NCBI RefSeq assembly: GCF_000344155.1
Contig: NZ_BAOQ01000002.1
Location: 62,001-126,000, forward strand
DNA from: Gordonia paraffinivorans NBRC 108238
GTDB lineage: Bacteria; Actinomycetota; Actinomycetes; Mycobacteriales; Mycobacteriaceae
Direction of reading: 5' to 3'
Length of the DNA: 64,000 nucleotides
Part shown: positions 7,625 to 12,920 of the stretch, piece after piece
Layout: each line of letters opens with the position of its first letter
How positions within the stretch are numbered: position 1 is the stretch's first letter
Program-made: the position numbers and the translations under genes
The notes under the pieces: generated by a model
What the model was told of the DNA's origin: nothing
What the model saw: the letters and a program-made list of their open reading frames with translations, nothing else
Database searches by the model: none

Positions 7625-7741
7625 ATGGCGCCCATGATCGTCGTGTCGAAGCCGGTCGCCGTGGACCGTCCCCGTACCGGCCTGTGGGTCGTGCGCGGGC
7701 TCGAGCCGGCCTCGCGGGCGATGTGTATGTGTTGTCGCTGA
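7625..7741 (+). CDS. Polycysteine leader peptide upstream of cysteine dioxygenase
   Basis: A 38-codon ORF ending ASRAMCMCCR-stop, with three Cys codons (TGT, TGT, TGT) among the last five sense codons. The stop is 44 bp before the cysteine dioxygenase start. Short upstream ORFs with terminal Cys clusters are known attenuators of sulfur genes in mycobacteria and streptomycetes: ribosome stalling at Cys codons reports cysteinyl-tRNA supply. I infer the same here. The true start is uncertain: ATG 7625, ATG 7634 or an internal GTG are all possible, and only the C-terminal cluster is likely to matter. Confidence 0.65.
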   Translation: MAPMIVVSKPVAVDRPRTGLWVVRGLEPASRAMCMCCR

Positions 7742-7785
7742 TGCGCAGATCTCCCGACCCACATCCACTCCCCCGAGGATTCGCC

Positions 7786-8376
7786 ATGACCTCCACCCTC
7801 TCGCGCCCGAGCGCGGCCACACTTCGTTCACAGCCGAACCCGACGACCCGGCGGCGGTTCGTCGCCGAGACCCCGCGGTCACGGACCCATCTGCCCACCC
7901 GGCTTCGCCCGGCCGACCTGCTGCGGATCACCGACCAGGGCGTCGCCGACGTCCTCGACGGGCGGCACGACCATCTGCTCCCCGCGGAGTGGGACCCGGT
8001 CCAGCGCTGGTCGACGCGGATCCACGCCGACGACGACGTCGATGTCTGGCTGATCAGCTGGACGCCCGGCGAGGCCACGGAACTGCACGACCACGCCGGT
8101 TCGCTCGGCGCACTGACCGTGCTGTCCGGATCGTTGCGGGAATACCACTGGACCGGCGAGAAGCTCGACGTCCGGGTTCTCGACGCCGGCGACCAAGCCG
8201 CCTTCCCGCTCGGCTGGGTGCACGACGTCGTGCAGAACCCCTCGATCACCGTGACCGGCCCGACGCTGAGCGTGCACGCCTACTCGCCGCCGCTGACGGC
8301 GATGTCGTACTACGAGGTGGCCGAGGGCAGCCACCTGCGGCGGACCCGCACCGCGCTCACCGACGAACCCGAATGA
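7786..8376 (+). CDS. Cysteine dioxygenase family protein
   Basis: A 196-residue cupin that would oxidise L-cysteine to cysteine sulfinate with O2 and a non-haem iron. Cupin motif 1 is PGEATELHDHAGS with the HDH iron ligands, followed by LTVLSGSLREY. Motif 2 is FPLGWVHDVVQNPS, giving the third His. The Glu of a classical cupin is absent, as expected for this family. ATG 7786 follows GAGGA by 6 nt. It is preceded by a polycysteine leader ORF and overlaps a rhodanese gene by ATGA, so the operon likely disposes of excess cysteine sulfur under cysteine control. Confidence 0.88.
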   Translation: MTSTLSRPSAATLRSQPNPTTRRRFVAETPRSRTHLPTRLRPADLLRITDQGVADVLDGRHDHLLPAEWDPVQRWSTRIHADDDVDVWLISWTPGEATELHDHAGSLGALTVLSGSLREYHWTGEKLDVRVLDAGDQAAFPLGWVHDVVQNPSITVTGPTLSVHAYSPPLTAMSYYEVAEGSHLRRTRTALTDEPE

Positions 8377-8789
8377 GCCCGGACCCGAGCGAGCGCCGAA
8401 CCCTGATGAGCAACAGACCCGCTCCCCGCACCATCGACGACGTACTCGCCGAGGCCCGCGCACGCCTCGACCGGCTCGAGGCGGCAGATGTCCCCGGCGA
8501 ACTCGCGAACGGGGCGGTCCTCGTCGACATCAGGCCCGCCGCCCAGCGCGCGCAGGAGGGTGAGATCGGGCAGGCGTTGATCATCGAGCGCAACGTCCTG
8601 GAATGGCGCTGCGACCCGTCCTCCGACGCCCGCATCCCCGAGGCCGCCGACCATGACGTCCGGTGGATCATCCTCTGCCAGCAGGGCTACACGTCGAGCC
8701 TGGCCGCGGCGGCGCTGCAGGATCTCGGACTCCACCGCGCGACCGACGTGATCGGCGGGTACGAGGCGCTCGCGCCGCTGCTCGGTTGA
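8373..8789 (+). CDS. Rhodanese-like sulfurtransferase
   Basis: A 138-residue single rhodanese domain. VLVDIRPAAQRAQEGEIGQAL is the N-terminal CH2A-like region, and the active-site loop CQQGYTSS has the persulfide-forming Cys. ATG 8373 overlaps the cysteine dioxygenase stop (ATGA), indicating coupling. A second ATG at 8406 would give a shorter product. It probably handles sulfane sulfur released during cysteine breakdown. The stop codon lies inside the first unit of a 20-bp tandem repeat. Confidence 0.85.
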   Translation: MSPDPSERRTLMSNRPAPRTIDDVLAEARARLDRLEAADVPGELANGAVLVDIRPAAQRAQEGEIGQALIIERNVLEWRCDPSSDARIPEAADHDVRWIILCQQGYTSSLAAAALQDLGLHRATDVIGGYEALAPLLG

Positions 8790-8932: not shown

Positions 8933-10234
8933 TCAGGCGACCGCGGGCCACGGCAGCGGGACCGGCCGGGTGTCGAGGGCGAGACCGGTCTCGGGGTCCG
9001 AGAGCGCGCCCACGTGGTCGGCGAGCGCCGGGTCGATCCACTCCGACGCGGCGAGCACGTACGACGGCTGTGCCGTGATCCGTTCGGTCAGGACGAAATC
9101 CGACTCCGCGGTGCGTGCGGCGAGGGCGTCGAGGTTGGGCCACGGACGCTCCGGGTTGACGTGGTCCGGGGTCAGCGGCGAGACCCCGCCCCAGTCGTCG
9201 ATGCCCGAGGCGATCAGCGCGGCGCATTCGGCCGGCGACACCAGGTTCGGCGGCGCCTGCACCCGCATGTGGGGTCCGAGGACGATACGCGCGACGGCGA
9301 CCGCGGCGAGGAACTCGGTCATCTCCGCGTCCGGCGTGGAGCGCATCGCGGTGTCGGGCTTGGCCCGGAAGTTCTGGACGATGACCTCTTGGATGTGTCC
9401 GGATCCGGCGTGCGCGTCGGCGATCGCGAAGAACGACTCGGCGCGCTCCCGCATGGATTCCCCGATGCCGACGAGAATCCCGGTGGTGAACGGCACCCGG
9501 GCCGCTCCCGCGTCGCGCAGGACCTGCATCCTCACCAGCGGGTCCTTGTCCGGGCTGCCGTAGTGCGGCTGCCCCTTCTCGGTGAACAGCCGACGCGAGG
9601 TGGTCTCGAGCATCATGCCCATCGACGGGGCCACCGGCCGCAGCCGCCGCAGCTCCTCGAGGCTCATCACGCCGGGATTCAGGTGCGGCAGCAGGCCGGT
9701 CTCGTTCAGGACGGCCACCGCGGCGGCGCGCACGTAGTCCAGCGTCGAGGAGTATCCGCGCTCGGTCAGCCATTCCCGGGCCTGCGGCCAGCGGTCCTCG
9801 GGGCGGTCGCCGAGGGTGAACAACGCCTCCTTGCAGCCGAGTTCGGCTCCACGCCGTGCGAGATCCACGACCTCGTCGAGTTCGAGGTAGAGCCCCTCTC
9901 CGGCGCGCGCGAGCTTGCCCGGCACGGTGACGAAGGTGCAGTAGTGGCACCGGTCCCGGCACAGGCGCGTCAGCGGGATGAACACCTTGCGCGAATACGT
10001 CACCTGGCGCGGCCGGCCGATCGCGGCGAGCCCTTCGTCGCGGATCGCGCCGGCGACCGACTGCAGCCGGGTGAGATCGTCGCCCGCACAATGCAGCAGC
10101 GCGACGGCCTGGTCGACGTCGATGGGCTCCCGGTTCTCGGCCGCCGCGAGTGCGGCGGCGACGGCACTCGGGTCCGGTCGCGGATCCTCGTGCGGCGAGG
10201 CGTTTCTCACGGTCGGGATGCTCAGGTCGGTCAT
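8933..10234 (-). CDS. cofG: CofG-type radical SAM FO synthase subunit
   Basis: 433 residues matching the N-terminal (CofG) half of mycobacterial FbiC, which closes the deazaflavin ring of FO, the F420 precursor. The radical SAM motif CRDRCHYC is at about residue 101, followed by [36 protein letters not shown] and VQAPPNLVS. It ends after LPWPAVA, where FbiC would continue into the CofH half, so this is a stand-alone CofG. The ATG at 10234 overlaps the preceding flavoprotein stop (ATGA). It is the third gene of a coupled unit with a monooxygenase and a Cys-less CofH-like protein. Confidence 0.88.
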
Positions 10235-11754
10235 CGGCGGACCTTGTCGGGTTCGGTCAGGAAGGGCGCGGGATCGAAGGTGCCGTTGCGCTCTCGGAAC
10301 GACGCCGCGGTCCCCGGCCACAGCAGGGTGAGACGACGGCTCTCCGGATCGACATACCAACTGTCGCAACCGGTCAACCACACGGTGGAGGCACTGCGCT
10401 CGTCGATCTCGCGGGTGTAGGCTTCCTCGGCCTCGGCCGAGACCTCGAGCACCCGGACACCGCGCTCGGCGGTGTAGTCGAGCGCGCCGAGCACGTAGTC
10501 GAGCTGCGTCTCGATCATGTAGATGGCGGAGTTGTGGCCGAGCGCGGCGTTCGGCCCGTCGAGGACGAACATGTTGGGAAAGCCGCTCACCACGGTCGAG
10601 GCGTAGGAGGTCATCCCCGACGACCAGTGCTCGGACAGTCGGCGTCCGCCCCGCCCGGCGACCCGCACGGCCGCCGGCGGGCGCGCCGCCTCGAATCCCG
10701 TCGCCATGACGAGCACGTCGAGGTCGTAGGTGCGGCCGCTGCGGGCGGTGGCCTTGGACTCGATCACCGACTCCAGCGCGCTCGGCTCGAAGACCACGTT
10801 GGGACGCTGCAGCGCCGGATAGAAGTCGTCGCTGAGAAGGATTCGCTTGCAACCGATCTCGTAGTCGGGGGTGAGCTGTTCGCGCAGCACCGGGTCGGCG
10901 ACCTGGGCCAGCAGGTGGTCGCGCGCGCGTGCCCGGATCTCGTCGATGTCCGGGTGCAGGCCGAGACGCTGGCGGAAGGCGGCGTCGGCCTCGGTGAGGA
11001 GGCGATCCCGGACCTCGGCCGCGACCTCGGGATCGCGCAGCGCCGCCCGCTCCTGCTCGGTGTACCGACGGTCCTCCCTGGGCACCACATACGGTGGCGT
11101 CCGGCAGAAGACGACGAGTTCTTCGGCCGTCTCGGCGAGGTGCGGGATGACCTGCACCGCCGACGCGCCGGTGCCGACGACACCGATCCGCGCGCCGTCG
11201 ACCGCCACGGCGTCGTGCCAGGCCGCGGTGTGTACGACCTGCCCGGGGAATCCGTCGAGTCCGTCGATCCGGGGGATCTTCGGCTCGGACAGCCGGCCCA
11301 CCGCCAGCACGAGGTTGCGGGCGAGGACGGTGCGCTCGGAACCGTCGGCGCCACCCGCGGCGATCACCCAGCGGGCCTCGGCGTCGTCCCAATGCGCTTG
11401 CCGCAGTTCGGTTCTCAGCCAGATGCGATCCGCGAAGCCCTCGTCGGCGACGGTCTGCTCGAGGTAGTCGCGGATCTCGGCTCCGCTCGGGTACCGCGAC
11501 GCCCAGTCGGCCGGTGGCCGGAAGGAGAACGAGTACAGGTGCGCGGGGATGTCGCAGGCGATGCCGGGGTAGACGTTGTCGCGCCACGTGCCGCCCACTG
11601 CGTCGGCGCGCTCGAGGACGACGAAGGACTCGCGGCCGCGCCGGGCCAGCTGCGTGGCCATGCCCAGGCCGGCGAAACCGGCGCCGACGATCGCCACGTC
11701 GACCTCGACCGCCGACGCGCGGTCCCGGGCTGCTCCCTGCGAGGTCACCGTCAC
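10231..11754 (-). CDS. FAD-dependent Baeyer-Villiger-type monooxygenase
   Basis: 507 residues. There are two Rossmann motifs: VGAGFAGLG near the N-terminus for FAD and VGTGASAVQ for NADPH. The Baeyer-Villiger fingerprint [13 protein letters not shown] lies between them and [11 protein letters not shown] follows the first. Such enzymes insert oxygen next to ketones or N-hydroxylate amines. The GTG at 11754 overlaps the CofH-like stop (GTGA), and its own stop overlaps cofG, so it is translated in lockstep with two FO-synthase-like genes. The substrate is unknown. The context is unusual, because M. tuberculosis has only the fused fbiC at this position. Confidence 0.85.
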
Positions 11755-12908
11755 GGATGCACCTGCGGGATCGGGAGGAGACGGGCGGGGTCGGGAGCGC
11801 CGTAGCGGGTGGTGCGCTGGCGCGGGACGCGACCGATCCGGTGGGCGGTGTCGGCGATGGTCTCGACATCGAGCACGCGCCCCGCCTCGGGCCCGGCCTC
11901 GGGCATCAGGCGACCGTCGAGCAGCACTCCCCCGATGTCGTCGACGCCGCCGCGGAGCACCTTCTCGACGGTCTCGGCGTCGAGCTTGGTCCACGCGACC
12001 TGCAGATGGTCGATGAGTCCGGCCGACATGAGGCGGGCCACCGCGTGCAGCGCGCGGGTCTCCCGCTGCGAGGCGGTGGCGGTCGCGGCATCGCGAAGGT
12101 GCGGCGGGGTGTTCGTGTCGACCATCGGCATCAGGATCAGCTCGCTGAAGCCACCGGTGCGGGCCTGGATGCCGAGGAGCGTGCGCAGGTGGGCGACCTG
12201 CTGCTCCGGGGACTCCACGTGGCCGTAGACGATGGTGGCCGTGGAGAACAGGCCGGTCCGATGGGCGGTCTCGATGACCTCGACCCACTCGCTCACCGGC
12301 ATCGCCGTACCCGTCGGCGACAGATACGCCCGCACGGCGTCGTCGAGGATCTGCGCCGCGGTGCCCGGAACCGAGCCGAGACCGGCGTCGCGCAGCCGCT
12401 GCAGGTGCTCGGCGACGCCGACCCCCGAGCGGCGGGCGCCGTCGGCGATCTCCGCGGCGCGGTAGGCGTGCAGGTGCAGGCCCTCGGCCGCGCCGGTGAT
12501 CTCCGCGACGAGTCGCACGTAGTCCTCCGCCGGACGGTCGGCGGGCAACGGCCCCTGCATGCAGATCTCGGTGGCCCCGAGCTCGACGGCCTCGGCCACC
12601 AGGTCGGTGAGCGACGGATCGGCGCCGCGGGTGTCGGCCGAACCCAGCCGCGCCGCGACCGCGGTGTCCAGGTTGCGGTTGACGACGAAGGTCAGCGCCT
12701 CCGGATCGGTGACGCGACGACGGACCGCATCGGCGAGCTCGCAGAGCTCTTCGAGCCCGCTGCCCGAGGCCCCGAGCAGCGCGACCCAGCCCTCGGTGTC
12801 GAGGGCATCCGGGCCGAGGGCTGTCGGGTCGTCACGGAGTTGCCGCAGGGCGGCCGCGACGCGCTCGGTCGGGGCCGTGATGTCGTCGGCCCACGCGCGC
12901 AGAACCAT
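11751..12908 (-). CDS. CofH-like (FbiC C-terminal half) protein lacking radical SAM cysteines
   Basis: 385 residues colinear with the CofH half of Fbi[67 protein letters not shown] and PRQRTTRYG. Where FbiC has the cluster-binding C-x3-C-x2-C just after VVNRN, this protein reads [16 protein letters not shown] with no cysteine. Only two cysteines occur in the whole protein. It therefore cannot bind the radical SAM cluster in the normal way. The ATG at 12908 is preferred over GTG 12914 because TAGAGT lies 6 nt upstream (leaderless). It is first in a three-gene coupled unit. Confidence 0.8.
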
Positions 12909-12914
12909 GCTCAC

Positions 12915-12920
12915 ACTCTA
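12915..12920 (-). promoter_or_regulatory. -10 element of the CofH-like operon
   Basis: On the minus strand TAGAGT ends 6 nt before the ATG at 12908. This suggests a leaderless transcript and an independent promoter for the three-gene unit. Confidence 0.5.

Follow-up and report, generated by a model that had tools for sequence, protein, structure and literature searches.

From a 64,000-nt stretch of the Gordonia paraffinivorans NBRC 108238 genome (contig NZ_BAOQ01000002.1, positions 62,001 to 126,000; here called the window), a three-gene unit can be deduced, encoding a CofH-like protein without radical S-adenosylmethionine (SAM) cysteines (CofH*), a Baeyer-Villiger-type monooxygenase (BVMO) and an intact CofG, in the following termed the cofH*-BVMO-cofG trio. 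With a rough probability of 70%, CofH* and BVMO would replace the CofH step in the synthesis of the deazaflavin FO (7,8-didemethyl-8-hydroxy-5-deazariboflavin), and the best reading of the sequence data is an oxygen-dependent, non-radical substitute for this first step. Support comes from gene content, loss of the cluster motif, strict pairing of CofH* with BVMO, selection, the absence of a second CofH and the loss or erosion of the CofH half in Williamsia, while the formation of FO, the respective roles of the proteins and the identity of the donor are what we infer.

In all F420 producers studied so far, FO is synthesized by a universal mechanism employing two radical-SAM domain enzymes, in which CofH generates a p-hydroxybenzyl radical from tyrosine and adds it to diaminouracil and oxidizes the adduct, and CofG catalyzes the cyclization of the latter, with both halves apparently acting independently and the intermediate moving by diffusion (PMC8498797). 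The initial annotation had pointed to a CofH-like gene devoid of the radical-SAM cysteines next to an intact cofG, and this is borne out. The 16-residue stretch following VVNRN in the window CofH* does not contain C-x3-C-x2-C, and in the alignment this motif is present in 0 of 55 CofH* compared to 53 of 53 CofH sequences. With the CofH model TIGR03551, the window CofH* scores 289.3 bits, below the curated cut-off of 374.1, and CofH* reaches this cut-off in none of the 18 other CofH* genomes searched whole (17 with non-Gordonia titles plus G. jinhuaensis). Scores with the MqnC and MqnE models are 186.7 bits (cut-off 428) and 150 bits (cut-off 435), respectively. In the tree, CofH* forms a single clade that groups with CofH against MqnE/MqnC-type sequences (Shimodaira-Hasegawa-like approximate likelihood-ratio support of 99), the 20 latter sequences carrying the cluster motif by selection of the script. 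An origin of CofH* from MqnE or MqnC is ruled out by tree and family scores. The predicted structure of CofH* is a confident CofH/MqnE-type barrel, with MqnE (6xi9) as nearest solved fold. Moreover, CofH* is under purifying selection, with ratios of non-synonymous to synonymous substitution rates (dN/dS) of 0.10-0.23 in 15 pairs. Many of its segments are invariant across the aligned sequences, and its conserved residues differ from those of CofH; Arg150, Glu232 and Thr307 are specific to CofH*, and the first of these, near-invariant at the position of a CofH serine, could, speculatively, bind a carboxylate. For the alignments, 32 of 36 (A1), 35 of 41 (A2) and 33 of 41 rows (A3) were used after dropping near-duplicates, and trees were built on subsets of 72, 53 and 85 rows.

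CofG from the window scores 458 bits with TIGR03550 (cut-off 213) and bears the cluster motif CRDRCHYC. All 55 CofG rows from genomes with CofH* contain the cluster motif (W. sterculiae being represented by two rows), and of 171 conserved CofG positions 146 are kept in these genomes, 1 is lost and 24 are in between. That CofG has barely changed argues for its receiving the usual substrate.

By Pfam and PDB comparison, the window BVMO falls among the type I BVMOs, with cyclohexanone, steroid and phenylacetone monooxygenases as its closest matches, albeit being shorter and only about 30% identical to known members. Its model (predicted local distance difference test score of 85.9) superposes on known BVMOs at a template modelling score of about 0.8. 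Across 33 BVMO sequences, two dinucleotide-binding sites, the type I BVMO fingerprint F-x-G-x3-H-x3-W and an arginine at the catalytic position are conserved, with G171, H175, W179 and R304 being invariant and F169 present in at least 90%. The CofH*-paired BVMOs (32 rows) form one clade (support of 99), and 21 further BVMO sequences fall outside it; of 18 paralogue loci, 4 did not pass the motif filter for this tree, and two fetched paralogues were omitted as repeats. A BVMO profile matched 55 of 401 family genomes, and in 6 of the 13 regions fetched from these matches CofH* adjoins the BVMO, while in the fetched stretch of 6 further regions, one of them ending at a contig end, CofH* was not found. 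One genome (G041, L237) has two further BVMO paralogues, with identities in the range of 43-49% (47-49% to the trio BVMO) and about 10 kb apart, and CofH* was not found beside either. Where tested, BVMOs without CofH* beside them fall outside the clade of the paired ones (the BVMO of G677 is not in the tree). A general Gordonia enzyme is ruled out by this tree together with the distribution within the genus.

Among 59 Gordonia genomes surveyed, the contiguous trio is present in 36 and a fused fbiC in 23, and never do both occur together. Each of these genomes has a single CofH-like match, except for one with its fused copy on two contigs (G009), and a genome-wide search in the host of the window (4.63 Mb, 100% complete, 0.07% contamination) found no second CofH or FbiC homologue. 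Hence, the earlier suggestion that FO is made elsewhere is contradicted as far as CofH/FbiC homologues are concerned, and the trio is the sole recognizable candidate for an FO synthase in the trio genomes. The BVMO orthologues of the latter are 72-85% identical (82 and 88% for the two fragments of G056), whereas no trio-type BVMO was detected in the 23 congeners with fused fbiC, where the best BVMO shows at most 41% identity in the 21 listed and weaker E-values in the other two. Trio and fused fbiC occupy the same neighbourhood across the genus, as the 35 fetched trio loci include genes for TypA (35), LpqW-like (35), Rv1171-like (35), MshB (28), FdxA (32) and DapC-like proteins (31), and the 23 fused loci those for TypA (20), LpqW-like (22), Rv1171-like (21), MshB (14), FdxA (22) and DapC-like proteins (22). 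Because FbiA as well as the F420-dependent reductase family PF04075 are encoded in all 59 genomes, the window genome included, trio and fused alike, the trio strains apparently both produce and use F420.

A wider scan revealed 40 CofH* loci, 22 of them from Gordonia, G. jinhuaensis not counted (mostly genomes already included in the genus set), and the others from Williamsia, a Rhodococcus, Naasia, Herbiconiux, Quadrisphaera and Actinomycetales metagenome-assembled genomes (MAGs), with BVMO on the same strand as CofH* in all 40. All 18 genomes searched whole possess a CofG over the cut-off and none a CofH. Four arrangements occur: CofH*-BVMO-CofG, CofH*-BVMO with CofG on the opposite strand, CofH*-BVMO with CofG elsewhere, and a fused CofG-CofH* followed by BVMO. 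Three more cases of the fused type (G613, G636 and G490) came from the family-wide BVMO-profile search, each with a single C-x3-C-x2-C located in the CofG half. Taking together the window and 56 fetched loci (35 from Gordonia plus 18 plus 3), BVMO is encoded downstream of CofH* on the same strand in 57 of 57, directly following it in 55 (overlapping or within 129 nt by match coordinates). In the remaining two, from Naasia lichenicola (L126:7248-8111) and an Actinomycetales MAG (L127:7158-8018), both with fused CofG-CofH*, one alpha/beta-hydrolase gene intervenes, hinting at an ester as BVMO product, which such an insertion would suit. The count of 57 is slightly inflated by near-copies, since a locus titled Kitasatospora arboriphila NRRL B-24581 (L120) is near-identical to that of Williamsia muralis (end branches of 0.011) and probably represents a mislabelled or contaminated assembly of the latter. 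CofH* and BVMO from a contig titled Streptomyces sp. NP160 (L132) group with Quadrisphaera, which may reflect either an incorrect title or gene transfer. In an even sample of the class, the trait was detected in 2 of 394 genomes, both Gordonia and one being the window genome; it is rare outside the family, although the strict threshold and pattern-based scan may miss divergent CofH* cases. A close plasmid-borne copy is ruled out, as all 73 matched plasmid records are below 60% identity; of the best 10, six are annotated as CofGH or FO synthase and four are without annotation, and a divergent plasmid CofH* among the other 63 is possible.

In Williamsia, the radical CofH half is lost or eroded. 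Five Williamsia and Rhodococcus sp. HNM0569 encode a lone CofG on a contig separate from CofH*-BVMO, while in three W. muralis-type assemblies (L141-L143) fbiC is still fused and its CofG half intact, its CofH half retaining the cysteines but missing conserved segments. Neighbours of the old fbiC locus are found in 8 of these 9 genomes (Rv1171-like in 7, FdxA/DapC-like in 1), but not in the fetched flank from W. faeni (L135); in W. sterculiae and G. jinhuaensis the trio itself sits at the fbiC locus. The stem branch of the eroded CofH half is 1.89, while no other FbiC row has an end branch longer than 0.49. The dN/dS of the eroded half amounts to 0.28-0.36; the intact CofG half fused to it has 0.04-0.07, and CofH* from these assemblies 0.12-0.13. 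The simplest reading would be that a radical CofH is no longer needed in the presence of CofH*-BVMO, with CofG still being necessary.

Mechanistically, the trio would thus represent the FO synthase of the host, with CofG performing the second, radical-SAM step, and CofH* and BVMO attaching the 4-hydroxybenzyl moiety from tyrosine at C5 of 5-amino-6-ribitylaminouracil by use of O2 and NADPH in place of SAM as oxidant. The same adduct could be formed without radicals if an electrophilic 4-hydroxybenzyl group were provided. Phenylacetone monooxygenase converts phenylacetone to benzyl acetate. In an analogous manner, BVMO might insert oxygen next to the carbonyl of 4-hydroxyphenylpyruvate or 4-hydroxyphenylacetaldehyde, and the resulting 4-hydroxybenzyl ester could shed its acid to give the p-quinone methide. 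CofH*, as a cluster-less barrel, would hold the diaminouracil as template and direct its C5 onto the quinone methide, and the outcome would be the usual CofH product to be passed to CofG. According to our own electron count, the oxygen route would be redox-equivalent to the radical one. This specific assignment, BVMO turning a tyrosine-derived ketone or aldehyde into ester or quinone methide for addition to diaminouracil by CofH*, is tentative, with odds of roughly one in three.

Several points weigh against the proposed replacement of CofH. FO or F420 production and BVMO activity in trio strains are predictions, and in the accessible parts of the open-access literature on Gordonia and F420 a measurement of either was not found. 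The BVMO substrate is not deducible from sequence. An unrelated enzyme might carry out the CofH step, the search having covered CofH/FbiC homologues, and the FbiA search covered the genus Gordonia. In at least 14 of the 15 pairs, dN/dS of CofH* exceeds that of CofG. Many CofH residues kept in CofH* are also common to MqnE and are, therefore, no proof of diaminouracil binding. In W. muralis, the eroded CofH half keeps C-x3-C-x2-C, has a dN/dS below 1 and may be alive. Finally, the BVMO of G056 (L038) is split into two overlapping frames, the sole case among 36 trio genomes, reflecting either faulty assembly or a disrupted gene.

Within the preferred explanation, labour might also be divided differently, in that BVMO oxidizes diaminouracil or the tyrosine amino nitrogen on CofH* and no benzyl ester is formed. 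This variant, too, is compatible with the genomic evidence on CofH* and BVMO as a pair, and the likelihood assigned to it overlaps that of the best explanation. However, the closest relatives of the BVMO are ketone monooxygenases, the required cleavage between C-alpha and C-beta of tyrosine would be directly given by oxygen insertion beside a carbonyl, and the alpha/beta-hydrolase gene at two loci would suit an ester, all of which leaves the variant somewhat less likely than the ester route. Returning to the roles of CofH* and BVMO as such, CofH* could alternatively be a non-catalytic scaffold, with CofG performing both couplings or an unrelated enzyme supplying the CofH reaction. The missing cluster motif and the presence of CofG, a radical enzyme, in every CofH* genome searched would fit; however, CofG is hardly changed though it would have to gain a reaction, many CofH* segments are invariant, and CofH* can sit far from CofG yet always lies beside BVMO, making this explanation unlikely. 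Of the non-radical scaffold for CofG suggested in the initial annotation, the non-radical role alongside CofG is retained as the best reading, whereas the constant partner is BVMO (57 of 57), with CofG also found elsewhere, on the other strand or fused. Slightly less probable still is synthesis of a modified deazaflavin or another tyrosine-derived metabolite with BVMO tailoring the product, for which the recruitment of a monooxygenase into the cluster and the deviating conserved residues of CofH* speak. Such a new end product, also envisaged at the outset, is left unsupported by the almost unchanged CofG (146 of 171 positions), by FbiA (59 of 59) and F420-dependent reductases in trio and fused congeners alike and by the failure to find a separate FO synthase in the genome; moreover, tailoring would not explain why every CofH beside BVMO is cluster-less and why no trio-type BVMO turned up in the 23 congeners with fused fbiC. 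A decaying fbiC remnant, considered earlier as a possible refutation, or a sequencing artefact might be read from the missing cysteines and the one congener with frameshifted BVMO, but is practically dismissed by purifying selection (dN/dS of 0.10-0.23 in 15 pairs), conservation across genera, absence of the motif in 55 of 55, the confident fold and a promoter kept in 36 of 36.

At the locus itself, the three minus-strand genes joined by 4-bp GTGA and ATGA overlaps behind a leaderless promoter, as described in the initial annotation, were confirmed from the sequence with a refined start. The cofH* start is most likely ATG 12908 rather than GTG 12914, because the -10-like TAGAGT (12920-12915) ends six bases before the former, and TAnnnT followed by 6-7 nt and the cofH* ATG is found at 36 of 36 Gordonia loci.

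Features of the trio locus in the window (window coordinates).
Feature	Position	Strand	Basis
cofH* (385-aa CofH homologue lacking the radical-SAM cysteines; starts with ATG)	11751-12908	-	sequence, family scores, alignments, model
BVMO (type I Baeyer-Villiger-like flavin monooxygenase; 507 aa)	10231-11754	-	Pfam, PDB, model comparisons
cofG (intact radical-SAM CofG; 433 aa; CRDRCHYC)	8933-10234	-	sequence, family score, alignment
GTGA overlap, cofH* stop/BVMO start	11751-11754	-	sequence
ATGA overlap, BVMO stop/cofG start	10231-10234	-	sequence
-10-like hexamer TAGAGT of putative leaderless promoter, 6 nt 5' of ATG	12915-12920	-	sequence and conservation
NRN (12672-12680) and short stretch replacing the CofH cluster loop	12621-12680, lower end approximate	-	alignments

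Just past cofG, genes for cysteine dioxygenase-like and rhodanese-like proteins lie on the opposite strand (7666-8786, +).

If correct, an O2-using first half of FO synthesis would break the two-radical-SAM rule and illustrate the conversion of a radical enzyme to non-radical, polar carbon-alkylating chemistry after shedding its iron-sulphur cluster. It would also revive 4-hydroxyphenylpyruvate, formerly thought to be an FO precursor according to the accessible part of one account (PMC12855090). As oxygen sensitivity of FO synthase is suspected to limit FO production in E. coli, again going by the accessible part of the source (PMC11917521), an oxygen-using half could matter there. Counting FO synthases by the CofH model would misname these organisms, since CofH* falls under the curated cut-off. 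A paper joining cluster-less CofH, BVMO and CofG was not found in the open-access literature, and PMC11852219, PMC3288000 and PMC6450877 have, in their accessible parts, no bearing on the combination of cluster-less CofH and BVMO; the route thus seems to be undescribed and to be carried by many Gordonia and some related actinobacteria.

Compared to known systems, the trio resembles FbiC and CofG plus CofH in its position at the same locus of the genus, its intact CofG and a CofH-type barrel grouping with CofH, but differs in a CofH part without the [4Fe-4S] motif and in having BVMO as constant neighbour. With type I BVMOs such as cyclohexanone, phenylacetone and steroid monooxygenase, the trio BVMO shares the whole fold, both dinucleotide sites, the fingerprint and the arginine, whereas its sequence has diverged, is shorter and belongs to a clade of its own tied to CofH*. 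MqnE and MqnC of the futalosine pathway include the nearest solved fold to CofH*, which, however, forms a separate clade and is without the cluster motif. HemF and HemN are oxygen-dependent and radical-SAM alternatives for the same step. Here, too, one step would be solved either with O2 or with a radical-SAM enzyme, but in contrast to the Hem pair, the O2 route apparently draws on the radical enzyme itself, in a copy that has no cluster.

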